Positions 498 through 59,485 of a DNA stretch of 59,485 nt are shown here, in pieces. Within the stretch, counting starts at the first letter, position 1. Each line of letters opens with the position of its first letter. The translations under genes and the position numbers were made by a program. Source of the DNA: Acidocella sp. (GTDB lineage: Bacteria; Pseudomonadota; Alphaproteobacteria; Acetobacterales; Acetobacteraceae); assembly GCA_029077825.1 (NCBI GenBank), contig JAQNCT010000012.1, forward strand, positions 1-59,485, written 5' to 3'. A model generated the notes under the pieces. The model was not told the DNA's origin. It made no database searches and saw only the letters and a program-made list of their open reading frames with translations.

Positions 498-642
498 ATT
501 ATTACGTAAATTTCACGTTTTTGTTTGGCGTAATTAGATTAGAGATAGTTCAGTATTTCTTTACAAAGCATTGTTAATAAATGTTACCTGCCGAACGCAG
601 GCGAGGTTTCCGGGCGCACTAAAACAATGGGGTGGCTTTCAG

Positions 643-1188
643 ATGGTGGTAGCGGTTCTGTTGATTTCAGCGACGTGTCTGCTGGTCTATGCCGCGGTGC
701 ATGACCTGGCGGCCCGTACTGTGCCCAACTGGCTGCCGGTTTGCCTGGTGCTGCTGGGGCTTGGCGTGCGTCTTGCTGATCACTCACTGCGCAGTGGGTT
801 AATTGTTGCCACCGTGACTTTTGTAGCTCTGTTCATCATCTGGTTTAGTGGCCTTATGGGCGGCGGTGATGTTAAATTGTGGGCGGCAACCGTGCTGCTT
901 ATACCGCCGCACTGGCAGGTTGAAATGAGCTTTTTCCTGCGAGTTTTACTAATCGGCGGCGCGCTTGCCGTGCTATACTTGGCGCTTTGGCTGCCGGTTT
1001 CACGGCGGCGGGCCCAAACCGCCAACGTGCCGGCGATCGTGCGGGCGCGGGCGCAAAGTTTGCTTCAGCGCATTGCCCGCGCGGAGGTATGGCGCATTTC
1101 ACGGCGCGGGCCGCTGCCTTACGCGGTTGCTATTTCCGGCAGCGCCATTCTCACCCTCCTTCCTCTCTCGATGCAGAACTTAAGGTAA
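643..1188 (+). CDS. cpaA: Prepilin peptidase CpaA/TadV (A24 family)
   Basis: Inner-membrane aspartic peptidase that removes the leader of Flp prepilins. The 181-residue product is strongly hydrophobic with about five to six membrane segments. It carries both catalytic aspartates of the A24 family: one in the first cytoplasmic loop (VHDLAARTVPNWL, near residue 19) and one in the GxGD motif (MGGGDVKLW, near residue 71). It has no N-methylase domain, as usual for the short TadV type. The ATG at 643 places the first membrane segment directly at the N-terminus; upstream in-frame starts add only polar sequence and are rejected. Three bases separate it from cpaB, so they are probably co-transcribed. 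Confidence 0.9.
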   Translation: MVVAVLLISATCLLVYAAVHDLAARTVPNWLPVCLVLLGLGVRLADHSLRSGLIVATVTFVALFIIWFSGLMGGGDVKLWAATVLLIPPHWQVEMSFFLRVLLIGGALAVLYLALWLPVSRRRAQTANVPAIVRARAQSLLQRIARAEVWRISRRGPLPYAVAISGSAILTLLPLSMQNLR

Positions 1189-1191
1189 TTC

Positions 1192-2064
1192 ATGGTCGCC
1201 AAGCTTGCTCTCTTCCTTGTCGTGGCGATCGCTCTGGTCGCGGTGTCTATTTTTGGCGTTTCGCTATTGAACCAGTCGAAGCAAACGCCGGTCGTTGTGG
1301 CGCCACAAACCCAGCAGATTTTAGTTGCCGCCACCCTACAGCAAGCTGGCAATCTGTTGCAGCCCAGCGATATCGCGGCGGCGCCGGTGCCGGTGGGGAG
1401 TATCCCAGTGGGTGCCAGTCTTGATACCCCTGTAAACCGTTCCTCGTTGATCGGCGCCATGACCCGCCAGGCGATCAGCCCCGGCGAGCCAATTCTAAAT
1501 GGACAGGTCATCCACCCTGGTGATCACGGGTTTTTGGCAGCGGTTCTGGCGCCTGGAATGGTTGCAACCACCGTTGGTGTTGACGCGATTTCTGGAGCCG
1601 CCGGTTTGATCTGGCCAGGTGACCGCGTGGATTTATTGTTGACTCAGACCCTCGATGATCCCGGACTGCCGCCCGGCCAACGTATTGCGGCAGAGCTGGT
1701 CCTACGCGATATTAGGGTAATCGCTACTGGGCAACAGCTGGTACAAGGTAGCACCGCCCCCACGGCGGACAACAAAAGCCCGCTGCCACCGGCCACCACG
1801 GTTACCCTTGAAGTGACCCCCGATGAAGCGGCGCGCACGGCAGTTGCCACCAAACTCGGGCCGCTCTCGCTGGTCGTGCACTCGGCGGAATCCACGCCCG
1901 GTTCAAGAGCAGCTGCTGATCAGGCGGCTGCGGACGATAAACCGGTCTATGCCGGTCAGGTTTCGCCGGCTCTGCTAAATGGCCGCGGTGTCCAGTCGGA
2001 TGTTCCGGCGCCCCACGTTACCGTGATTGGTGGTAACGGCAGCGATCAGGATTTCAAATTCTAA
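1192..2064 (+). CDS. cpaB: Flp pilus assembly protein CpaB/RcpC
   Basis: Periplasmic, inner-membrane-anchored assembly protein of the Tad system, thought to act with the CpaC secretin. The 290-residue product begins with one membrane segment (about 4-26). An SAF-like fold follows (about 40-110), containing the family pattern in which a cluster near AAPVPVGSIPVG leads to a conserved region near RQAISPGEPIL. The RcpC/CpaB domain follows (about 115-230), with the typical GMVATTVGVDAISGAAGLIWPGDRVDLL-type region around residues 123-150. The C-terminal 50 residues are low-complexity and Ala/Asp rich. Its stop codon overlaps the cpaC start by one base (TAATG), indicating translational coupling. Confidence 0.9.
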   Translation: MVAKLALFLVVAIALVAVSIFGVSLLNQSKQTPVVVAPQTQQILVAATLQQAGNLLQPSDIAAAPVPVGSIPVGASLDTPVNRSSLIGAMTRQAISPGEPILNGQVIHPGDHGFLAAVLAPGMVATTVGVDAISGAAGLIWPGDRVDLLLTQTLDDPGLPPGQRIAAELVLRDIRVIATGQQLVQGSTAPTADNKSPLPPATTVTLEVTPDEAARTAVATKLGPLSLVVHSAESTPGSRAAADQAAADDKPVYAGQVSPALLNGRGVQSDVPAPHVTVIGGNGSDQDFKF

Positions 2065-3518
2065 TGGCAAGGAACTCAATTGTGACCTTCAAAAAACTCA
2101 TCTGGCCAGCTGGCGCGTTGCTGGCCGGCTGTTTGGCGATGGGCTTGCCTTCGCCAGCGGTCGCGCAAAATGCCGGCGTTCAGCCGTCAGCCCCTGTCGC
2201 ACCCAAGCCGGTATCCGGCAGTTTGAATCTCAACATGGGTTCCGGTCGGATAGTCAAGCTGCCGCACCCGGTGTCCAGTATTTTCGCGGCCGATCCGAAT
2301 GTGGTTGAGGTTCGCCCGGCCAGCCCAACGTCATTGTTCATGTTTGGCAAAGGTGTCGGCCAGACCAACGTCATAGCGACCGATGGCAGTGGTAATACGG
2401 TGGCGCAATATACCGTTGTGGTCGGCCCCTCAGCTTTTGCTGATAACCGGCTGACTGGCCAGTCAAAACTAACGTCGCCCACTGCTAATGTTCATGCCGA
2501 GAGTGAACCGGGCGGCATGATTGTACGAGGTACGGTTGATTCGCCCGAACAAGCCAACCAGGTACTTGGTCAGGCCAAGCTGATCAATCCTTCGGGGACG
2601 GTAACCAATGATCTGACTGTGAAAGAGCCGATCCAGGTCGAGTTAAAAGTGCGCATCGCTTATTTGTCGCGCAACGTTACCCGCCAGCTCGGGATTGACT
2701 GGAGCCAAATCGGTTCTTCAACATTTCGGATTGGTAAAACCTTTGTTGCCGCTTCTCTCGGAAATACCGGGACTGCTGCACCGTCAATTAGTGGTACAAA
2801 CCCTGGTACTTTGGGGGTTGGGGTTTCTTTCCCCCATGGCTCGTTCCAGGGTATTATTGATGCGCTAGCAACTGATAATTTAGCCCATATTGTCGCAGAG
2901 CCTACATTAACCACGTTAAGCGGTACTCAAGCTAACTTCCTTGTTGGTGGGCAGTTTCCAGTGCCTGTAGCAGGGGCAGGCTCAGCTACTGCAGCTGGTA
3001 GCGTTCAAACGGTTTCTGTTACATTCAAAAGTTTTGGCATCCAGCTTTCTTTCACGCCGACGGTTTTTTCAGACGGCAGAATTTCATTGCAAGTGGCGCC
3101 TCAATTGAGTCAAATCAGTGTAGCTAACTCCACAACATCGGGCGGCATAACAATCCCCGGCCTTAATGTGCAAGCTGCTTCCACGACCGTAATATTAGGT
3201 AGTGGTCAAGGCATGGCAATTGCCGGATTATTAGAAGACACGACTAACCAAACCGATAATGCTGTCCCAGGTCTTGGTGAAGTTCCCTTTCTCGGTGCTT
3301 TGTTCCGTGGTGATAGCTTCCAGCGTCAGCAACAAGAATTGGTTATTACGGTAACGCCGTACCTAGTTAATCCAGTCAGCAATACTGATATGTTAGCGTC
3401 GCCGGATGACGGCTGGTCACCCCCAAACGACCTGCAACGCATTTTATTGTTGCGTAATAGTGGCGGTCCCTACAAAAATGCCGCTATCCCGGGTGATGCT
3501 GGGTTCGTGGTGCAATGA
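2064..3518 (+). CDS. cpaC: Tad pilus outer-membrane secretin CpaC/RcpA
   Basis: Forms the outer-membrane ring through which the Flp pilus exits. The 484-residue product has a Sec signal peptide (about 1-34, ending near SPAVAQ). A pilus-type N-terminal secretin domain (about 45-125) follows, then a BON-like region (about 140-190) and the secretin barrel domain (about 250-445), which includes the conserved secretin motif VPGLGEVPFLGALFR near residue 407. Length and domain order are normal for the family. The start overlaps cpaB by one base. The second half (from about 2731) is visibly more AT-rich than its neighbours: by hand count 28 G/C of 60 at 2881-2940, against 44 of 60 at 5461-5520 in cpaF. 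This may mark recombination in the surface-exposed barrel. Confidence 0.92.
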   Translation: MARNSIVTFKKLIWPAGALLAGCLAMGLPSPAVAQNAGVQPSAPVAPKPVSGSLNLNMGSGRIVKLPHPVSSIFAADPNVVEVRPASPTSLFMFGKGVGQTNVIATDGSGNTVAQYTVVVGPSAFADNRLTGQSKLTSPTANVHAESEPGGMIVRGTVDSPEQANQVLGQAKLINPSGTVTNDLTVKEPIQVELKVRIAYLSRNVTRQLGIDWSQIGSSTFRIGKTFVAASLGNTGTAAPSISGTNPGTLGVGVSFPHGSFQGIIDALATDNLAHIVAEPTLTTLSGTQANFLVGGQFPVPVAGAGSATAAGSVQTVSVTFKSFGIQLSFTPTVFSDGRISLQVAPQLSQISVANSTTSGGITIPGLNVQAASTTVILGSGQGMAIAGLLEDTTNQTDNAVPGLGEVPFLGALFRGDSFQRQQQELVITVTPYLVNPVSNTDMLASPDDGWSPPNDLQRILLLRNSGGPYKNAAIPGDAGFVVQ

Positions 3519-3814
3519 TGTTGAAAGCTTCGCCTATGTCAAAGATTTTACTAGGACTAACACCCTTGTTATGTGTAAGTCTTACAGGATGTTATGCAGA
3601 CCCCTATCAAAATCCTGGAAACTGGTCGATGAACGGTGCGCCTCGAGAGAATATTGCTGTGCAAGCAGCGGACAAAACAGAGCTTTTTCAAGGTCATGGA
3701 GACAACACTTCTAACGGCGTCGCGGCTTCGGCCGCTGTGGACTCCGCTTTGTCAGGTGGCACTGCAGCTGGGTTGCAGAAGGCTCCCAAAGACCTTAGCT
3801 TTTCGACGAATTAA
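3515..3814 (+). CDS. Short CpaD-like pilus lipoprotein
   Basis: A 99-residue predicted outer-membrane lipoprotein in the cpaD position between cpaC and cpaE. The signal (MSKILLGLTPLLCVSLTGC if the internal start at 3536 is used) ends in the lipobox LTGC. The mature part begins DPYQNPGNWSMNGAPREN and carries a later ASAAVDSALSGG-type patch, which resembles the ends of CpaD proteins and the short CpaD forms of some alphaproteobacteria. Caulobacter-type CpaD is about twice as long, so most of that protein is absent here. The 3515 start gives an ATGA overlap with cpaC; 3536 gives a more standard signal length. The gene is AT-rich (21 G/C of 60 at 3541-3600). Assignment rests mainly on position and these motifs. 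Confidence 0.68.
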   Translation: MMLKASPMSKILLGLTPLLCVSLTGCYADPYQNPGNWSMNGAPRENIAVQAADKTELFQGHGDNTSNGVAASAAVDSALSGGTAAGLQKAPKDLSFSTN

Positions 3815-3863
3815 TGATACCGGCATTTAATTTGGAGTTGCCTGGTATGAGAGGATTGCAGTT

Positions 3864-5129
3864 ATGAATCAGGAAAGCTACCGCATGTCGACCTCGAATT
3901 CGGCTTCCCGGCCAGACCGTTTGACGGTCCTGGCCTTTCTGGCTGATGTGCAAACCGAGCAGGTGTTGCGTGATGGTCTTGGCGATATCGTTGCCAATGG
4001 CATGGATGTCAGGCGCGGTACTGTACGCACCGCTATTCAGGCGATGGCAAAACTGCCAACCCCTGAAGTTCTGATCATTGACATTTCGGGCGACGATCAG
4101 CCGCTCAGTGCCTTAGGTGAACTCTCCGATGTCGTGGAGCCTGGCGTGCGCGTGCTGGTCATAGGTGACACCGACGATGTGGATTTTTACCGTCACATCA
4201 CGCGTGGCATGGGTGTCATGGAGTATATTTTCAAGCCGATCACCCGTGAGGCGGTCGGCCGGCATTTTGCGCCGCTCATCACCCGCAAGACCGTAGGCTC
4301 TGATGCCGCGCGTGGTGGCCGTGTGGTGAGCTTGATGGGTGCGCGCGGCGGCGTCGGTACTACAACCATCGCTGGAAACCTCGCCTGGTATCTTGGTGTC
4401 ATTTCGAAACGCCACACGGTATTTGTGGAATCTGACCTGCACATGGGTTCAGGCGCCCTACTACTTGGCGGTAAAACCGGCCCCGGCTTACGGATGGCGC
4501 TGGAAACTCCCGATCGGATCGACCCGCTGTTCGTCGAACGCGCAGCCCAGCCCGTCTCCGAGCGCCTGCATGTTCTGGCCAGCGAGGAAAAACTCAGTGA
4601 ACCTCTGAATTACGCCAAAGGTGCTGCGCAGCGACTGATCGAAACGCTGCGTGTCCGTTATAATTTCGTTATCATGGACGTACCATTTCTGCCGATGCCC
4701 TGTAACCGCGAGTTGCTGGAATATTCGCATCATCGCGTTATCGTCATGGACCCCTCTTTGGCGTCGGTGCGTGACACGCTGCGCTTGATGGGGGTTCCTA
4801 ACGGACCCTGGCAGCCGCAATCTCCTACCATCGTCCTTAGCCGGCAGGGCCGCCCTGGTGGCTTGACCCGCAAGCAAATCGAAGACGCTCTGAAGGTCAA
4901 GATCGACGTGGTGATCCCAGACATGCCTAAGCAGTTGAACGAAAGTGCTAGCTTCGGCGAACCAGCTGTAACTGAACGTGGACCATTCCGTCAGGCGATA
5001 ATTGATCTTGGCCGTGAAATCGGCTTTGTCGGCGGCCGCGATGAAGGTGGTCCGCCGCCCGAGCCGACCAGTGCGTTAAGCTCCGTGGCCAATATATTCA
5101 AGGCTAGTAAGCTCGGCGGACTCTCGTGA
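3864..5129 (+). CDS. cpaE: Tad pilus localisation ATPase-like protein CpaE/TadZ
   Basis: MinD/ParA-superfamily protein that positions the Tad machine, usually at a pole. The 421-residue product has an atypical receiver-like N-terminal domain (about 20-140) and a C-terminal P-loop domain with GARGGVGTTTIAGNLA at about 159-174. The canonical deviant Walker A (KGGxGKT) is altered: the signature lysine is Arg and the P-loop lysine is Thr. That is common in CpaE/TadZ and suggests weak or no ATP hydrolysis. A Walker B-like stretch (FVIMDVPF) lies near residue 270. AGAGGA (3850-3855) lies 8 bases before the ATG. The stop overlaps cpaF by four bases (ATGA). Confidence 0.9.
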   Translation: MNQESYRMSTSNSASRPDRLTVLAFLADVQTEQVLRDGLGDIVANGMDVRRGTVRTAIQAMAKLPTPEVLIIDISGDDQPLSALGELSDVVEPGVRVLVIGDTDDVDFYRHITRGMGVMEYIFKPITREAVGRHFAPLITRKTVGSDAARGGRVVSLMGARGGVGTTTIAGNLAWYLGVISKRHTVFVESDLHMGSGALLLGGKTGPGLRMALETPDRIDPLFVERAAQPVSERLHVLASEEKLSEPLNYAKGAAQRLIETLRVRYNFVIMDVPFLPMPCNRELLEYSHHRVIVMDPSLASVRDTLRLMGVPNGPWQPQSPTIVLSRQGRPGGLTRKQIEDALKVKIDVVIPDMPKQLNESASFGEPAVTERGPFRQAIIDLGREIGFVGGRDEGGPPPEPTSALSSVANIFKASKLGGLS

Positions 5130-6574
5130 ATGATTCTAGTATGCCGGTGTTTGGTCGTCGGCGTAGCGATGGAATGGAGCTAATGACCTCGGTGCCGCTC
5201 CCAGCGGCACCGGAAGTGGTGATCGAAACCAACAACACCTCGCTCAACACGCAAGAACAGGACCAGTCGGCGGCAGTTATCGCCGCCGCCGCCGCCAACG
5301 CCGCGGCAGTCAATACCCGTACCGAAATTTCCGAACTGCGCGCCCAATGTCTTGCTAAAATGGATGCTACCGCCGTAGCAGCCTTGCACCCTGAACGTCT
5401 GTTGATCGAGGTCGAACGGTTAATCTCTGATCTTGCCACCGAGCGGCGCGTGCATCTTAACGGCCGCGAGCAGCGCCAGCTTGCCACCGAACTGGTGGAC
5501 GACATGCTCGGCCTGGGGCCCTTGGAGCCATTGCTTCTGGACGAAAGCATTAACGACATCATGGTCAACGGCCCTGATAAAACCTTCATTGAACGTGGCG
5601 GTAAACTCGTCCAAGTGCCGGTGCGCTTCCGTGACTGGACGCACCTTACCAACATCTGCCAGCGCATCGCAGCCTCGGTTGGCCGCCGGGTTGATGAATC
5701 CAGCCCGATGGTGGACGCTCGCCTTAAGGATGGTTCGCGTGTTAATATTATCCTGCCGCCGCTTTCCATTGATGGCCCCGCGCTATCAATTCGTAAATTC
5801 GCCAAAAAGCCGATTGATTTTGACAAGCTAATCGCTTTCGGCTCACTTACCCCTGCCATTGCGCGCGTGCTCGAAATTGCTTCCCGCTGCCGTCTCAACA
5901 TTATCGTCTCCGGCGGTACCGGCTCTGGTAAAACCACCATGATGAACGCGATGAGCCGCTTCATCGACCCAGCTGAACGTGTGGTGACCGTCGAAGACGC
6001 CGCCGAATTGCAATTACAGCAACCGCATGTGGTCCGGCTTGAAACCCGTCCGCCCAGCCTCGAAGGCAAGGGTGAAATCAACGCCCGCGATCTTGTGCGT
6101 AACGCGTTGCGTATGCGGCCTGACCGCATCATCATCGGTGAGGTCCGCGGCGCCGAGGCGTTCGATATGTTGCAGGCTATGAACACCGGCCACGATGGCT
6201 CAATGTCCACCATTCACGCCAATAATACACGCGACGCTCTGGCCCGTATTGAAAATATGGTGCAAATGTCGAGCATGGGGCTGACGCCTAAAGCCATCCG
6301 CAGTCAGGTCTCGGCGGCGGTGAATATCATCGTGCAAGTTGAACGCCAGCGCGACGGTGGCCGTCGTGTCACCCAGGTCACCGAGTTGGCAGGTCTTGAA
6401 GGTGAAACCCAGCTTCTGAATGATATTTTCAAATTTGAGGTGCTGGGCGAGACACCTACAGGCCGTGTCGTCGGCCGTTATGTCATAAGCAAAATGCGTT
6501 CAACATTTCACGAGCGGCTGCAATATTTCGGGCTTGACCGGGCCTGGGCTCATGCCCTTGAAGATATGGCCTGA
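5126..6574 (+). CDS. cpaF: Tad pilus assembly/secretion ATPase CpaF/TadA
   Basis: Hexameric GSPE-family ATPase that powers Flp pilus assembly and, in TadA homologues, retraction. The 482-residue product has an Ala-rich variable N-terminus (about 20-60) and an N-terminal domain with LGPLEPLLLDESINDIMVNG (about 131-150). The ATPase core carries a Walker A motif GGTGSGKTTMM (about 262-272). It is followed by an Asp/Glu box around VTVEDAAELQL, a Walker B region RPDRIIIGEVRG and a His box GHDGSMSTIHAN, all intact. Length is typical. It overlaps cpaE by four bases and tadB by one base (stop/start TGATG), so stoichiometric translation is likely. Confidence 0.95.
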   Translation: MNDSSMPVFGRRRSDGMELMTSVPLPAAPEVVIETNNTSLNTQEQDQSAAVIAAAAANAAAVNTRTEISELRAQCLAKMDATAVAALHPERLLIEVERLISDLATERRVHLNGREQRQLATELVDDMLGLGPLEPLLLDESINDIMVNGPDKTFIERGGKLVQVPVRFRDWTHLTNICQRIAASVGRRVDESSPMVDARLKDGSRVNIILPPLSIDGPALSIRKFAKKPIDFDKLIAFGSLTPAIARVLEIASRCRLNIIVSGGTGSGKTTMMNAMSRFIDPAERVVTVEDAAELQLQQPHVVRLETRPPSLEGKGEINARDLVRNALRMRPDRIIIGEVRGAEAFDMLQAMNTGHDGSMSTIHANNTRDALARIENMVQMSSMGLTPKAIRSQVSAAVNIIVQVERQRDGGRRVTQVTELAGLEGETQLLNDIFKFEVLGETPTGRVVGRYVISKMRSTFHERLQYFGLDRAWAHALEDMA

Positions 6575-7548
6575 TGAACGGAATTGTTATTGCCGTATTT
6601 ATTTTTATTGTTGTTTTGTTGGGTTTAGCCGGGGTTAGTTTTTCGTTAGTCATGAACTCGATGTCTCGGAAACAAAAGTTCGAGACCCGTATTTCCGGTG
6701 CCACATCTGACAATCAAAAACAGACCATCATCATGGGAGACCAGATCTCCCTTGCCAAGGTTGTTTCTCGCACTGATCTGGTAAAAACCCAGGCCGCCAA
6801 TGTCATCGGCGTTGATCTGCAACAGGCTGATGCCTATCCGATAAAATGGTGGCTGGTGCCGCCATTGTCGCTGGGGATCAGTTGGGTGGTGGTATGGCTT
6901 GCCACAAAATCTATCGGCTTTACATCGGTTTTGTATGTTCTCGGCTGGCCGATCGTCTGGTTCATTATTACAAAGGTCATGTTTATCTGGTTCAATAACA
7001 AGCGAAATAGCAAATTGCTTTCGCAGTTTCCAGATGCGCTGGGCACCATCGTTCGCTGTGTTCGCGTCGGTATCCCGATCGGTGAGGCTTTGCGCACCGT
7101 GGCCCGCGATGCGCCCGAGCCCACCAAACTGGAATTCGATATTCTGGCTGATAAGGTGCAGATCGGCATTCCCGTCGATGCGGCTTTGCGGGAGTTATCC
7201 GAGCGCGTCAAAGTCACGGAGTATCAGTTTTTTGCTACTGCTATCACGCTGCAAATGCGCTCTGGCGGCGCCATCACGCATACGCTGGAAACCCTCGCTG
7301 ATGTGATCCGCAAACGCGTCGGGTTGAAAGCCCGCGGTTTCGCGCTTACCTCCGAAGCTCGTACTAGCTCGATGATATTGGCGTTGCTGCCGTTCCTTAC
7401 TGGTACCGCACTTTATTTCATGAACCGATCGTACATCCTCCTTTTGTTTTATACCAAAAGCGGGCAGGCCTGCCTGGGCGGGGCGATTCTGATGCTATGC
7501 ATCGGTCTCGGCATCATTCAGTTCATGATCAGCAATGTGCTCAAATAG
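6574..7548 (+). CDS. tadB: Tad inner-membrane platform protein TadB
   Basis: One of the two polytopic GspF-type proteins that form the inner-membrane platform for CpaF. The 324-residue product has an N-terminal membrane segment (about 3-25), a central pair of segments (about 88-132), a T2SSF domain (about 150-290) containing LPDALGTIVRCVRVGIPIG-type sequence near 153-171, and C-terminal segments (about 265-320). It starts at the final base of cpaF and is followed 9 bases later by tadC. The first 60 bases are AT-rich, normal for a hydrophobic N-terminus. Confidence 0.9.
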   Translation: MNGIVIAVFIFIVVLLGLAGVSFSLVMNSMSRKQKFETRISGATSDNQKQTIIMGDQISLAKVVSRTDLVKTQAANVIGVDLQQADAYPIKWWLVPPLSLGISWVVVWLATKSIGFTSVLYVLGWPIVWFIITKVMFIWFNNKRNSKLLSQFPDALGTIVRCVRVGIPIGEALRTVARDAPEPTKLEFDILADKVQIGIPVDAALRELSERVKVTEYQFFATAITLQMRSGGAITHTLETLADVIRKRVGLKARGFALTSEARTSSMILALLPFLTGTALYFMNRSYILLLFYTKSGQACLGGAILMLCIGLGIIQFMISNVLK

Positions 7549-7557
7549 CCTCTTTCC

Positions 7558-8493
7558 ATGATCATCATTGTCTTCTCCATTATTCTCGCCCTTTTCTTCA
7601 CAGTCGCCGTACTCGGCTATTTTTTGATTGAGGAACTGACCCGTAAGGACCAGCTCACTAACCGCCTGCAATTCGTGACCGTGGCCACGAATGAAATCGT
7701 CGAAGACCTCAAGCCCGCAGTATCTCCCGTCATCGGGTTGGTATCCACCCTTGGCATGCTGGTTGCTCGCAGTGGGCTGCTGTCACGTAAAACCCTGTCC
7801 GAAATGACGGCCACACTCGAAGCGATCGGCTTTCGCGGTGGGCGCGGCCTGGGTCTGTTTATCGGCACCAAATTACTGTTGTTTCTGGTCACACCGGTGA
7901 TTGCCTATTTTGCGCTGCGTCATTACGGTACAACGCCATTTTTTGTGTTTGCCAAAATCTTGGGTGGTGCGGTGGTCGGGCTGCTGGCACCGGAAACCAT
8001 CGCCACCAATATTCGTACGCGGCACCTCAAAAAAGTCGAATCCGGCGTGGCTGATGCGCTCGACATGATGGTCATTTGCGCGGATTCCGGCTTGGCACTT
8101 GAAGCCAGCATCGCGCGGGTGGCCCAGGAACTGATTGTGCTGAATCCCGCTTTGTCCACTGAACTGACCCAAACATCGCAGGCCCTTACAATTGGCGCCG
8201 ATATGCGCAACGCCATGGAGGACCTTGGCCAGCGCACTGGAATCGATTCGCTCAAGCGTCTTGCCACAACTCTGATACAATCGCTGCAATATGGTACGCC
8301 ATTGACCCAGGCGCTTCGGACTCTTTCAGCCGAGCTAAGGCAGGAAGCATTAATTAAATTTGAGGAACGTGCGGGCAAGTTGCCGACTTTGATGACAATT
8401 CCTATGATTCTATTCATTTTGCCGTGTGTTTTTTTAATTGTTGCGGGTCCAGCCATGATTAACGTTCTGGCGACTCTGCACGGGATGAAGTAA
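7558..8493 (+). CDS. tadC: Tad inner-membrane platform protein TadC
   Basis: Partner of TadB in the inner-membrane platform. The 311-residue product opens with a membrane segment (about 2-23), has two segments around residues 98-145, then a T2SSF domain (about 155-285) with the TadC-type sequence DALDMMVICADSGLALEASI near 166-185, and a final membrane segment (about 281-303). Length and order match the family. It lies 9 bases after tadB and 9 bases before the TPR-SPOR gene. Confidence 0.9.
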   Translation: MIIIVFSIILALFFTVAVLGYFLIEELTRKDQLTNRLQFVTVATNEIVEDLKPAVSPVIGLVSTLGMLVARSGLLSRKTLSEMTATLEAIGFRGGRGLGLFIGTKLLLFLVTPVIAYFALRHYGTTPFFVFAKILGGAVVGLLAPETIATNIRTRHLKKVESGVADALDMMVICADSGLALEASIARVAQELIVLNPALSTELTQTSQALTIGADMRNAMEDLGQRTGIDSLKRLATTLIQSLQYGTPLTQALRTLSAELRQEALIKFEERAGKLPTLMTIPMILFILPCVFLIVAGPAMINVLATLHGMK

Positions 8494-8502
8494 AGCGATA
8501 AC

Positions 8503-9903
8503 ATGAATAATCGATCCATTATTATTTTGAGCGCGGTTTGCCTGCTTACTGCATGTGCGAAAACACCCGCCCAAATGCCGGCCAACACCGATAGCAATGG
8601 TAGTCCTGGGACGCTCAACGTTGCTGACGCGGCAATCGCGGGCGGTGATCCGACGATGGCGCTATCGGTCAGCCAGTCCGCTCTGCAATCTGACCCGAAC
8701 AATGTTGATGCGTTGATCCATGAAGGTGAGGCCTATTATGCGCTAGGTCGCTGCCCGGCTGCCGAGGCCGCCTTCAACCTGGCCATCACGCATGACCCGA
8801 AATCTTCGCAGGCCGAGACCGGGCTTGGCCGTTGTTTGATCAAAACAGATCCGGTGCAGGCTGATAAAGCCCTGGTTCTGGCGGTGCAGGATGATCCTGG
8901 CAACGCCGATGCCCTGAACGATCTTGGTATCGCCCGTGACCTCGAAGGTAACTTTGCTGGCGCGGTTGATCCTTATCGCAAGGCGTTGATCGCGCAACCT
9001 GGCATGACCGCCGCTGAAATCAACCTCGGGCTGTCGCTGGCGCTGTCCGGTAATGGCCAGGCAGCGCTGCAATATTTAGGCCCGTTGGCCACCTCTCAAA
9101 CCGCCACTCCAAAAATCCGTGAAGATTACGCCGCCGCTTTGGTGGCTACGGGGCAGGTGGCTGAAGCCCGGCATGTGCTGAGCATCGACCTGCCGCCAGA
9201 CGATGTTGACAAAGCCATCGATGGTTTCAATGCGATCATTGCCAACGCCCAGCCCCCCCTGCCAACCAGTGAACCGGCAGCACCGCCTACCACGCCGCAA
9301 GTGCAGACCACCGCTGTCACCACCACGTCGCTAACAACCTCCGCACCCGCAGTAGCCCCCCCTGTGCCAGCAGCGCCAACGCCAGCGGCTTCCTCGATGC
9401 CCGCGCAGATCGCACCGCCGGTGTCCTCGAGCGACACCAGCGCTTCAGCATCAACAACAACGTCGTCCGCAACAGCGTCCTACTCAACAGCGCCAGCCGC
9501 ACCGCCGCCCGCCGCCAAAGCCGCGGATATCACGGCCCCGCCGCCCGATACATCGTCAGCCGCAGCGGGCACCTCAGCACCGGCCGATGCCGCCCCACCA
9601 GCCGCAACACCGCCTGCGAATACCAGCGTGGCAGATACCACCGCAAACGTTGCGCCAGGCACCTATCAGGTACAGTTGGGCGCTCTGCCGTCGCAAGCGC
9701 AGGCGCAACATATCTGGGATAAATTATCCAGCGCCAATCCAGAATTGTTCGGCGATAAAACCCCGAACATTGTAAGCGCCACGGTTAAGGGCAAAACCTA
9801 CTACCGGCTTCGCACTGGCAGTTTTGCCAGCAAGGCCGAGGCCGCGAAATTCTGCGGCGAGGTTAGTGCTGCGGGCAGTGTCTGCACGCTGGCGAACTTC
9901 TAA
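8503..9903 (+). CDS. TadD-like TPR lipoprotein fused to a SPOR domain
   Basis: The 466-residue product starts with a lipoprotein signal ending in the lipobox LTAC (residues 14-17). Tetratricopeptide repeats follow (about 30-220, for example EGEAYYALGRCPAAEAAFNL and NDLGIARDLEGNFAGAVDPY). A long Ala/Pro/Thr/Ser-rich linker (about 245-380) leads to a C-terminal SPOR domain (about 384-466) beginning TYQVQLGALPSQAQAQ. TadD proteins are TPR lipoproteins that act as pilotins for the Tad secretin; SPOR domains bind denuded peptidoglycan, often at division sites. The fusion suggests a tether between the pilus and septal or polar wall. Position as last gene of the tad run supports a pilus role. The two domains are clear; the joint role is inference. 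Confidence 0.8.
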   Translation: MNNRSIIILSAVCLLTACAKTPAQMPANTDSNGSPGTLNVADAAIAGGDPTMALSVSQSALQSDPNNVDALIHEGEAYYALGRCPAAEAAFNLAITHDPKSSQAETGLGRCLIKTDPVQADKALVLAVQDDPGNADALNDLGIARDLEGNFAGAVDPYRKALIAQPGMTAAEINLGLSLALSGNGQAALQYLGPLATSQTATPKIREDYAAALVATGQVAEARHVLSIDLPPDDVDKAIDGFNAIIANAQPPLPTSEPAAPPTTPQVQTTAVTTTSLTTSAPAVAPPVPAAPTPAASSMPAQIAPPVSSSDTSASASTTTSSATASYSTAPAAPPPAAKAADITAPPPDTSSAAAGTSAPADAAPPAATPPANTSVADTTANVAPGTYQVQLGALPSQAQAQHIWDKLSSANPELFGDKTPNIVSATVKGKTYYRLRTGSFASKAEAAKFCGEVSAAGSVCTLANF

Positions 9904-57151: not shown

Positions 57152-57181
57152 ACAACCGGGGCAATAATGAACCCCGGTTGT
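57152..57181. terminator. Bidirectional hairpin between the flavoenzyme and cytochrome genes
   Basis: ACAACCGGGG (57152-57161) and CCCCGGTTGT (57172-57181) form a 10-bp perfect stem with a 10-base loop, between two convergent stops. On the minus strand it is followed by TTTTATGG, suiting termination of the cytochrome operon. Confidence 0.72.
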
Positions 57182-57192
57182 GAATTATGAAA

Positions 57193-57585
57193 TTACTTGC
57201 CTGTCAGGGTGGCAAGATAAGCGATGACATCAGCGCGGTCACCAGCGTCCGGCAGCCCGGCATAGGGCATTTTGGTGCCGGGCACATAGCTCTGAGGGGC
57301 TGCGAGAAATTTATCCAAAGAGGCGTCATCCCAGACCAGCTTGGCACCCTTCAGAGCCGCGGAGTATTCATAGCCTGCTGCCATAGATGCGGCCGGCTTG
57401 CCATAAATCCCTGCTAGCGACGGCCCGATACCATTGGCGCCCGGTGTCACACCGTGACACATGGCACATTGGCTTTGAAATACGCCAGCACCCTTGGTGG
57501 CGTCACCCGCCGCCAGCGCCGAGCTGGCACCTGCCAGCATCAACATAGCTGTGGCCAGGCCGAATAATTTGCTCATGGATGTCAT
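57193..57585 (-). CDS. Small periplasmic class I c-type cytochrome
   Basis: Soluble monoheme cytochrome c of 130 residues. A Sec signal (about 1-26, ending ALAAG) is followed by the heme motif CAMCH (Cys40, Cys43, His44) and a distal Met ligand in VPGTKMPYAG (Met106). The intervening GPSLAGIYGK and YSAALKGAKLVWDDASLDKF segments are typical of cytochrome c2/c550-like folds. GAGGGA lies 7 bases before ATG 57585. It is 23 bases downstream of the cytochrome-porin gene and likely co-transcribed, which makes it a candidate periplasmic electron carrier for that protein. Confidence 0.92.
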   Translation of the reverse strand: MTSMSKLFGLATAMLMLAGASSALAAGDATKGAGVFQSQCAMCHGVTPGANGIGPSLAGIYGKPAASMAAGYEYSAALKGAKLVWDDASLDKFLAAPQSYVPGTKMPYAGLPDAGDRADVIAYLATLTGK

Positions 57586-57608
57586 TGTTGTTTCCCTCAG
57601 TTAAAGTT

Positions 57609-58955
57609 TCAGAAAGCGAGCCAGATGCCGGTGAATAATGTATTATTGGCGTTCGCGCTGGCTCCCGCGCCATCATAATTGCTACTGCGGCCGCTGAAGG
57701 TTGGGAAGATGATCGCTTCAACAAAAAATTTCGCATTTGCCCAGGGCATGATTTTCGGGCCGCCGTTGTTCCATGGATAATAGTCAATCTCAGTTGTAAA
57801 ACTGCTGGTGTTGGGTTTGCCGTTGGCACTACCACTATAAGCCAGGGCGTCACTGCTGCCAACAATATTGCTGTAGGTTTCGGTGATGCCGTATTTTTGG
57901 TGTAACAAATATGAAGCCGTCAGCGTTATAGTATCAAGGCTGTCATTTAAGTTGCTGCTATTCCCCGCAGCATAGGTTGCCGATAGATGCTGCCATTCAT
58001 GAACATAGGCCGCCTGTAACGAGAGCGCGTATGTGGACGAGATGAACTGCAATTGTGAGTCCACCCCAAGATCGGTCATGTGGTCGGCGGGGTCGTGCGA
58101 GACGCCGCTGGGAATCGGGTTATCCTGCAGGCCGATGGCGCCAAGCTCAAATGAATTATTTGCCCAACTATGCTGCCAGGCCAGGCGGCCATAAGGAATG
58201 GCGCCCGAAATTGGGTTGTAGCCTACACCCAGTGTATGGCCGAGATTATTCGGCAGCGATTGATACACGTTAGCTTCAGCATACAAAAGGTCGCTCAGGG
58301 TGATGTTCATGGCGCCGTAAGCACCCAGGCCCATCACCTTCCCACCCAGTGAGGCCAACTGCACAGCGGCAGGCGGGCCAGCGCCTAGCGAGTCGGGCAA
58401 GAATGGGTAACCCCAGGCGGGTGGCGTATTCCATAAATCGGTTACACCGGGGTTGTTGTTGAAGGTGAAGCCGTAGAACAGCGGTTTTTTCAGAAACGTC
58501 GTCAGACGCGCCAACCGGATGTCAGTGTTGTCCCACGAAAAACTATGGCCAATGCCGTTATAAGTGGCCTGGATGAACGCGCCCAACCCAATTTTTGCAT
58601 CAAGCGCGCCACCGTAAAAGATACTGGTTTGCTGGACTGACCAGGCGTTGTTGGAGGGATAATTAGGCGCCAGCCCTCCCGGCACTTTGTTTTGCACATG
58701 GGTGAAGCCGATTTGCGACATCAAGGCCAGATTCTTGAAATCCGGGAACATGCCGCCTGCGACATAACCTTCTAGTTTGAACTCCCGCCCGTACGGGGTG
58801 AGTTGGGGAAAGCCGATATGGCAGGCCGAACAAGGCTCACCTGTTTGTGCGGCAAAAGCCGGGATGGCATGGGCGGCATTGGTATCTGCAAGGTATCCCG
58901 TGAGGGCGAGGGCCACAACGGTCCAGGGCAGGCGTGTAATTGAGACTCTGGCCAT
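57609..58955 (-). CDS. Cyc2-like outer-membrane monoheme cytochrome fused to a beta-barrel
   Basis: The 448-residue product has a Sec signal (about 1-30, ending AHA). Directly after it comes IPAFAAQTGEPCSACH (31-46), a single CxxCH heme site in the setting seen in Cyc2 proteins (AxPxFARQTGxxCxxCH). PQLTPYGREFKLEGY follows. The remaining roughly 380 residues are alternating beta-strand sequence rich in Gly, Asn, Tyr and Trp, ending in Phe (GIWLAF), as in outer-membrane porins. Cyc2 of Acidithiobacillus moves electrons from Fe(II) across the outer membrane by this plan. Related proteins of unknown role also occur widely in Proteobacteria, so iron oxidation is not established. First gene of a two-gene operon with the small cytochrome c. 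Confidence 0.78.
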   Translation of the reverse strand: MARVSITRLPWTVVALALTGYLADTNAAHAIPAFAAQTGEPCSACHIGFPQLTPYGREFKLEGYVAGGMFPDFKNLALMSQIGFTHVQNKVPGGLAPNYPSNNAWSVQQTSIFYGGALDAKIGLGAFIQATYNGIGHSFSWDNTDIRLARLTTFLKKPLFYGFTFNNNPGVTDLWNTPPAWGYPFLPDSLGAGPPAAVQLASLGGKVMGLGAYGAMNITLSDLLYAEANVYQSLPNNLGHTLGVGYNPISGAIPYGRLAWQHSWANNSFELGAIGLQDNPIPSGVSHDPADHMTDLGVDSQLQFISSTYALSLQAAYVHEWQHLSATYAAGNSSNLNDSLDTITLTASYLLHQKYGITETYSNIVGSSDALAYSGSANGKPNTSSFTTEIDYYPWNNGGPKIMPWANAKFFVEAIIFPTFSGRSSNYDGAGASANANNTLFTGIWLAF

Positions 58956-59068: not shown

Positions 59069-59485
59069 TCAGGCGCTGACCCGGTTGCGGCCGGCGGTTT
59101 TGGCCCGGTACAAGGCCGTGTCAGCATGTTCGATCAGGGTATCGCCGCTGATCGGATGGGACAGATGCGTGTAAACCCCGATACTGGCTGTAATAATGCC
59201 GAATGGTGAACCTGGGTTCGCGTGCTGCAGATCGGTGATGGCGGCCAGCACCCGCTCGGCGACTTCAACCGCGCGCACTCCATCGGTGCCCGGCAAAATG
59301 AGCAAAAACTCGTCCCCACCATAGCGGATTAAAATATCGCTCTTACCGCGCAGATTATTGCGGATGGTGTCAGCGACCACCCGCAGGCAATGGTCGCCCC
59401 GCAAATGACCAAGCTGATCATTGAGAGATTTGAATTTATCGATATCGATCATGCAGATGCTGAGCGGGATCAGGTTCTTGGTGGT
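59069..59485 (-). CDS. GGDEF-domain diguanylate cyclase (5' part beyond the window)
   Basis: C-terminal 138 residues of a GGDEF protein; the reading frame stays open to the window end, so sensor domains upstream are not visible. The domain shows PLSICMIDIDKFKSLNDQLG with the metal-binding Asp and substrate Asn, then HLRGDHCLRVVADTI, the active-site loop RYGGDEFLLILPG and SIGVYTHLS. All residues needed for making cyclic di-GMP are present. The usual inhibitory RxxD is not in place before the loop (RGKSD instead), so product feedback may be weak. Cyclic di-GMP commonly controls pili and exopolysaccharide, both encoded in this window. Confidence 0.9.
   Translation of the reverse strand, partial: TTKNLIPLSICMIDIDKFKSLNDQLGHLRGDHCLRVVADTIRNNLRGKSDILIRYGGDEFLLILPGTDGVRAVEVAERVLAAITDLQHANPGSPFGIITASIGVYTHLSHPISGDTLIEHADTALYRAKTAGRNRVSA

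Follow-up and report, generated by a model that had tools for sequence, protein, structure and literature searches.

The cyc2-like gene and its cytochrome c partner

Contig JAQNCT010000012.1 of Acidocella sp., analysed over its whole stretch of 59,485 nt (hereafter the window, whose positions are used throughout), carries on its minus strand a gene for a Cyc2-like cytochrome-porin of 448 amino acids (aa) and, 23 nt after it, a gene for a monoheme cytochrome c; together these form a candidate outer-membrane electron conduit. The locus comprises the following features.

57609..58955, minus strand: Cyc2-like cytochrome-porin, 448 aa (open reading frame from ATG to ...GIWLAF, homologues, 16-strand barrel model, porin fold matches)
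58866..58955, minus strand: signal-peptide-like residues 1–30, cleavage read after AHA (by eye only)
58842..58868, minus strand: N-terminal signature AIPAFAAQT, with Ala replacing the Arg of the published consensus AXPXFAR[Q/K][T/Y] (sequence, alignment)
58818..58832, minus strand: heme c attachment motif CSACH, residues 42–46 (sequence; C, C and H present in 132 of 132 aligned homologues)
57193..57585, minus strand: periplasmic class I monoheme cytochrome c, 130 aa, starting with ATG 23 nt after the porin gene (open reading frame, PF00034)
57454..57468, minus strand: CAMCH heme motif of the cytochrome c (sequence)
57152..57181, minus strand: hairpin with an 11-bp stem, likely terminator (folding; position between convergent stop codons)

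The porin contains exactly one CxxCH, near its N-terminus in AIPAFAAQTGEPCSACHIGFPQL, and ends in Phe. Its partner was recognized as a class I cytochrome c by PF00034 (E-value = 5.8 × 10-10) and by cytochromes c of the PDB (E-values down to 8.7 × 10-28). The hairpin separates the stop codon of the cytochrome gene from that of a convergent gene for an FAD-linked oxidase; its folding energy is −26.2 kcal/mol (z = −5.3) and none of 200 shuffled sequences was equally good, although a consensus terminator scan did not list it. A promoter scan gave three sites against 2.1 expected, none of them upstream of the porin gene. The gene pair and its hairpin had been described in an earlier reading made from the letters alone (the sequence-only reading), and the two open reading frames with their spacing, the signal peptide (by eye), the single heme motif, the terminal Phe, the periplasmic cytochrome and the terminating hairpin were all confirmed here. 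Because full-length homologues are present in dozens of genomes, the gene pair is not a product of chance.

A predicted 16-strand barrel with one heme motif

The AlphaFold2 model of the 448-aa protein, built with 80 sequences (predicted local distance difference test score of 88.5), contains 16 longer strands, preceded by helices in residues 2–31 that are interrupted by one strand of three residues. The VIA fold list was filled by 16-strand porins, with OmpC-type porins first. In Foldseek the best row by E-value was the alginate exporter AlgE (E-value = 4.8 × 10-9, TM score of 0.45), which is not a 16-strand porin, followed by 16-strand porins. As modelled, then, the protein is a 16-strand outer-membrane-type barrel with a short N-terminal one-heme domain. 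The sequence-only reading had anticipated such a barrel. In the fold comparisons the model fell in with closed porin barrels, and among the clades looked at none had a known unrelated function.

Cyc2-like proteins have been delimited by a length of at least 365 aa together with a heme-binding site (PMC8406198), and the window protein has 448 aa and a single CxxCH. The consensus AXPXFAR[Q/K][T/Y] ahead of CXXCH serves in the same source as an aid to recognition and not for inclusion; AIPAFAAQT agrees with it at every specified position except the Arg, and thus departs from it. The PXL four residues past CXXCH is present as CSACH-IGF-PQL, with its P and L in all 132 alignable homologues. The full set of invariant residues among these (mature numbering) is Q7, T8, C12, C15, H16, P20, L22, G26, F29 and K30, but the invariance figures flatter these sites, because 79 of the 132 rows came from a pattern scan that covered part of the conserved region. 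The sixth ligand of the heme may be Met at mature position 49, which 121 of the 132 rows share.

Within the branch that contains the window, 29 of 31 rows have lost the signature Arg (30 loci of its family plus that of plasmid pACRY03), against 4 of the 101 other rows; since the scan pattern admitted only Arg or Ala there in 79 of those 101, and no loss occurred among them, the fair comparison outside the branch is 4 of 22, all four being Alphaproteobacteria by kinship or name. A search with the published motif would thus miss most of this branch. Pfam and NCBIfam gave zero matches for the 448-aa protein and the PDB sequences only two, at chance level, so no family name can be derived from these databases. 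Judged on published criteria and descriptions, the protein is classed with the Cyc2-like homologues and is not called Cyc2 in the strict sense. With this wording, sequence and model support the proposal of a Cyc2-like cytochrome-porin paired with a co-oriented cytochrome c.

The rest of the electron chain

The genome (2.55 Mb in 112 contigs, 100% complete by tool estimate) encodes one Cyc2. An operon for cytochrome c oxidase, with COX1 and COX2 recognized by models and the aa3 type assigned by eye, lies on a contig other than that of cyc2, and the genome has a second COX1 fragment. PufL, PufM and the tetraheme PufC of a photosynthetic reaction centre are encoded, as is a cbb operon, in which the large and small chains of Form I ribulose-1,5-bisphosphate carboxylase/oxygenase (RuBisCO) were confirmed by models and fructose-bisphosphatase, phosphoribulokinase, aldolase and CbbX were named by eye. 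The sequence-only reading had found no multiheme protein or terminal oxidase nearby and expected a minimal chain. The first statement holds within the window, where CxxCH is absent from the other 47 of 49 picked non-overlapping open reading frames of at least 90 aa, but not genome-wide; the chain itself need not be minimal, as oxidase, PufLMC, Calvin-cycle operon and a cytochrome bc1 complex without the Rieske histidines all stand in the same genome.

That bc1 complex is the only one detected, with a single cytochrome b (L191, G000:C86, 2961–4658). Its Rieske protein has CELLGN..CPCDGS at the site of CTHLGC..CPCHGS in solved Rieske proteins, and in its cytochrome b the second histidine of helix B is replaced by Ala. 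We take the changed Rieske residues to be both cluster histidines and one disulphide cysteine. With both Rieske histidines and one cytochrome b histidine gone, the route from quinol to cytochrome c looks blocked, and the complex appears, from its residues, unable to reduce cytochrome c. Deranged bc1 complexes have been described in acidophilic Acetobacteraceae, with Cyc2 and a neighbouring cytochrome proposed as a bypass (PMC10715153).

No DmsE-family decaheme cytochrome (TIGR03508) was matched in the genome at an E-value of 0.01, a search without positive control since 14 control genomes gave no match either. A rus-type pathway, with rusticyanin and a diheme Cyc1 beside cyc2, was not found; rusticyanin had no match in the genome at an E-value of 0.001, and the partner is monoheme.

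Cyc2 and Form I RuBisCO across the family

In a sample of 150 genomes of the family, three traits were tried as correlates of Cyc2, namely Form I RuBisCO, the high-potential iron-sulphur protein (HiPIP) and the reaction centre. Form I was defined as a PF00016 match above 400 bits, a cut set after the gap from 441.2 to 246.3 bits had been seen. Cyc2 homologues occur in 41 of the 150 genomes, Form I in 25 and both in 16, so that Cyc2 is present in 16 of 25 Form I genomes against 25 of 125 others (Fisher p = 2.6 × 10-5; p = 3.6 × 10-4 in the 126 high-quality genomes). Any match to the RuBisCO family gave p = 0.0012, and non-Form-I relatives of RuBisCO showed no association with Cyc2 (p = 0.31). 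On an rpoB tree holding 140 of the 150 genomes (the other 10 had no rpoB row), a Pagel-type test of dependence gave a likelihood ratio (LR) of 23.3–23.4 (p = 1 × 10-4), which none of 78 null simulations reached (maximum 13.3), and the fitted rates place gains of Cyc2 on Form I backgrounds.

The reaction centre was rejected as a correlate (18 of 41 Cyc2 genomes against 34 of 109 others, p = 0.18, LR 4.0), whereas among the 52 genomes that have one, Cyc2 is found in 13 of 20 with Form I and in 5 of 32 without it (p = 7 × 10-4). Since Form I is associated and the reaction centre is not, Cyc2 goes with the fixation of CO2, a process that requires electrons from an external donor, and not with the use of light as such. 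HiPIP was not used as a companion trait; 8 of the 41 genomes with Cyc2 have it, with p = 0.029 by Fisher's test and p = 0.064 when the tree is taken into account.

Homologues, plasmid copies and phylogeny

Beyond the family, homologues were found at an E-value of 0.001 in 88 of 398 genomes of a phylum sample, 70 of the 88 through the N-terminal part alone. Among titled genome contigs at least 579 places were confirmed; the 80 best, which were retained, include Pseudomonadota, Bacteroidota, Gemmatimonadota and Acidobacteriota. Homologues of Acidiphilium, Acidisphaera and Acidocella share a similarity network with Cyc2 of Acidithiobacillus (PMC10654088).

In a tree of 60 rows, the window, six rows of its family and pACRY03 make up an eight-row clade with support of 100/100, in agreement with a tree of 139 rows. 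The larger tree leaves out L001 (the window, entered as WIN), L061, L062, L057 and L092 as duplicate or partial, and the N-terminal-only phylum loci L048, L051, L054 and L056, which fell below the search threshold. A further group (f38), matching in the N-terminal part only and distant from the window in the tree, is by our guess cluster 1 Cyc2.

Nine plasmid records carry a Cyc2-like gene, and eight of them were examined. Closest among the named relatives fetched is that of plasmid pACRY03 of Acidiphilium cryptum JF-5 (57% identity), where an intact cyc2, a C-terminal remnant (L060, 7351–7804) and a c-type cytochrome follow one another; the Acidiphilium multivorum copy is split (pACMV3, L062, 5890–7258). 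The Acidiphilium plasmid copies show decay. Plasmid searches with L035 and L055 added no further named organism. Cytochrome c genes also lie near cyc2 on plasmids of Caballeronia, Polymorphobacter, Methylocystis, Paraburkholderia and Ideonella. A plasmid labelled Acidithiobacillus ferrooxidans YQ-N3 unnamed1 (L061) was discarded as an anchor for the tree, being identical to pACRY03 (L060) over the 8,730 bases compared; possibly it belongs to an Acidiphilium that accompanied the cultured strain. The order cyc2-cyc1-cup-cox was not seen, by order of open reading frames, in 18 stretches from 15 genomes, a subset of the 63 rusticyanin-matching genomes in a class sample of 369, and a search of the 398 phylum genomes gave no rusticyanin above the cut-off.

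Gene order around cyc2

A cytochrome c like that of the window lies within 1.5 kb of cyc2 at 19 of the 30 family loci (window included), on the same strand at 18 of them. Over the 147 loci examined in all, the number is 30, and in the clade of the window 5 of 8 rows have such a cytochrome. Many loci elsewhere have a two-heme cytochrome downstream of cyc2 instead. In one relative (G043; L335, G043:C3, 5828–10996), a cyc2-like gene and one for a class I cytochrome c come after pufL, pufM and pufC and share their strand. This puf-adjacent gene is the second cyc2 of that genome, 32% identical to the window's, and a single puf-cyc2 operon was rejected because a GC-rich, terminator-like hairpin with TTTTTT after it stands between pufC and cyc2 (by eye). 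Such a neighbourhood was seen by eye in only 1 of the 18 genomes that have both Cyc2 and a reaction centre, a count limited by draft contigs.

Genes for GGDEF-domain proteins stand beside cyc2 at several loci (window 59069–59485; the Ideonella plasmid, L067 7079–8020; G099, L351 8929–10188), which may be chance, such genes being common. At 571–9900 of the window, a run of plus-strand open reading frames resembles by eye a Tad/Flp pilus assembly cluster.

Direction of electron flow and substrate

We consider it rather probable that the pair is an electron inlet of the Cyc2 type, leading inward to cytochrome c and on to the oxidase or the reaction centre, with Fe(II) probably as the substrate. 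In such a chain Fe(II) would enter the barrel from outside and reduce its heme, which at the periplasmic mouth would reduce the partner cytochrome c; the latter would serve cytochrome c oxidase in darkness, and PufC with the reaction centre when light is available. With a bc1 that seemingly cannot reduce cytochrome c, the reduction of NAD+ and CO2 fixation by Form I RuBisCO would depend on a donor from outside whose electrons enter at this level. The association with Form I RuBisCO, together with the apparently blocked quinol-to-cytochrome route, favours inward flow.

Several observations weigh against an inlet of this kind. Acidiphilium cryptum JF-5, the host of the nearest named relative, reduces Fe(III) (PMC8790237), and Acidiphilium strain JA12-A1, which may or may not carry Cyc2, is reported to be unable to oxidise Fe(II) (PMC4725956). 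The two other genomes of the same genus in the sample have Cyc2 with neither Form I RuBisCO nor a reaction centre, and 25 of the 41 Cyc2 genomes lack Form I. The rpoB tree rests on one gene with partial rows, and its supported branches alone leave 8 independent pairs, of which on average 2.2 go the same way and 0.2 the other, which is not significant. In the 98 genomes without a reaction centre Cyc2 is only weakly tied to Form I (3 of 5 against 20 of 93, p = 0.083), and Form I in turn goes strongly with the reaction centre (20 of 25 against 32 of 125, p = 4.7 × 10-7). Neither rusticyanin nor HiPIP was found in this genome, three of the eight clade rows (L002, L004 and L006) show no window-like cytochrome within 1.5 kb, and the porin departs from the Cyc2 consensus at the Arg. 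Because JF-5 reduces Fe(III), same-genus genomes carry Cyc2 without Form I or a reaction centre, and JA12-A1 is unable to oxidise Fe(II), direction and substrate are given here as what we infer.

The same facts lend some weight to flow in the opposite sense, in which cytochrome c and then the barrel heme would hand electrons of the cell to external Fe(III), for dissimilation or detoxification. The closest named homologue fetched sits with its cytochrome on a plasmid of a bacterium that reduces Fe(III) (PMC8790237), ferric reduction in acidithiobacilli has been connected with Cyc2 or Cyc2B (PMC10715153, PMC8790237), and the same-genus genomes carry Cyc2 without Form I. Such a conduit would, however, lack its supply unless another enzyme reduces the cytochrome, because quinol-to-cytochrome c flow is apparently blocked at the only bc1 complex detected, and the Form I association points to electron intake; we regard outward flow as unlikely, though it is the strongest of the rivals. 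The statement of the sequence-only reading that the module could work in either direction is accordingly less even-handed now, since the quinol-to-cytochrome route for outward flow looks non-functional. Inward flow from a donor other than Fe(II), such as Mn(II), Cu(I), humic substances, an electrode or syntrophic partners, would suit a wider family that spans many lineages including Bacteroidota, Gemmatimonadota and Acidobacteriota; additional functions of Cyc2 have been cautioned (PMC8406198), and "other reduced metals" are allowed in part of PMC10715153. The three biochemically tested Cyc2 representatives, however, oxidise Fe(II) (PMC8406198), and we hold such a donor to be improbable. Very improbable indeed is a porin or redox sensor whose heme domain works outside energy metabolism, or a relic: the lost Arg, the split copy of Acidiphilium multivorum and the remnant beside the intact gene of pACRY03 would fit it, but the heme motif and many barrel positions are conserved, the frame and the partner cytochrome are intact, and the Form I association speaks against it.

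Comparison with known systems

Acetobacteraceae Cyc2 next to a cytochrome c, with a role in bypassing bc1, is already published (PMC10715153). The systems described there, in which the adjacent cytochrome is monoheme or diheme, share with the present one the gene pair, the deranged bc1 of acidophilic members and the proposed bypass; what is added here is the presence of PufLMC, Form I RuBisCO, oxidase, deranged bc1 and the pair in one genome, the statistical link with Form I and the replacement of the signature Arg. The literature consulted, mostly passages and without supplementary files, contained no mention of this replacement, of the association with Form I or of cyc2 beside puf.

The Cyc2/rus pathway of Acidithiobacillus ferrooxidans likewise has a cytochrome-porin gene followed by a cytochrome gene, and a cytochrome c oxidase in the genome. 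As that pathway is described, it differs in that the partner here is a monoheme class I cytochrome and not the cytochrome c4 Cyc1, no rusticyanin was found and the oxidase lies on another contig. For A. ferrooxidans a redox potential of 560 mV is quoted (PMC8406198). With cluster 1 Cyc2 of neutrophiles (Cyc2PV-1, Gallionellaceae, Chlorobium), known to us by descriptions, the protein shares a predicted 16-strand porin and an N-terminal heme domain. Cyc2PV-1 has been expressed in E. coli together with cytochrome c maturation. PioAB, MtoAB and MtrAB are also outer-membrane electron conduits, but they place a decaheme cytochrome in a 26-strand barrel (PMC8406198), whereas here one heme goes with 16 strands and no DmsE-family decaheme was found in the genome.

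Phototrophic Ferrovaceae with Cyc2 and PufLM have been published, three of four species preferring thiosulfate as the donor (PMC13390463). For the present organism a life as an acidophilic purple bacterium with a linear, bc1-independent photosynthesis may be imagined, in which electrons would run from Fe(II) through Cyc2 and cytochrome c to PufC and the reaction centre, and from there through quinone and NADH to Form I RuBisCO, Cyc2 replacing PioAB or FoxEYZ; we offer this tentatively, and with more doubt than the inlet itself.

Homologues of Cyc2 occur in many organisms not known as iron oxidisers, where their role is open (PMC8406198). The present genome makes that role testable, since its bc1 complex is without the Rieske histidines while genes for a reaction centre, an oxidase and the Calvin cycle are present. 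Cytochrome c would then have to draw its electrons from another source, for which Cyc2 is a concrete candidate, and the family-wide association with Form I RuBisCO lends independent support to a role in electron intake.
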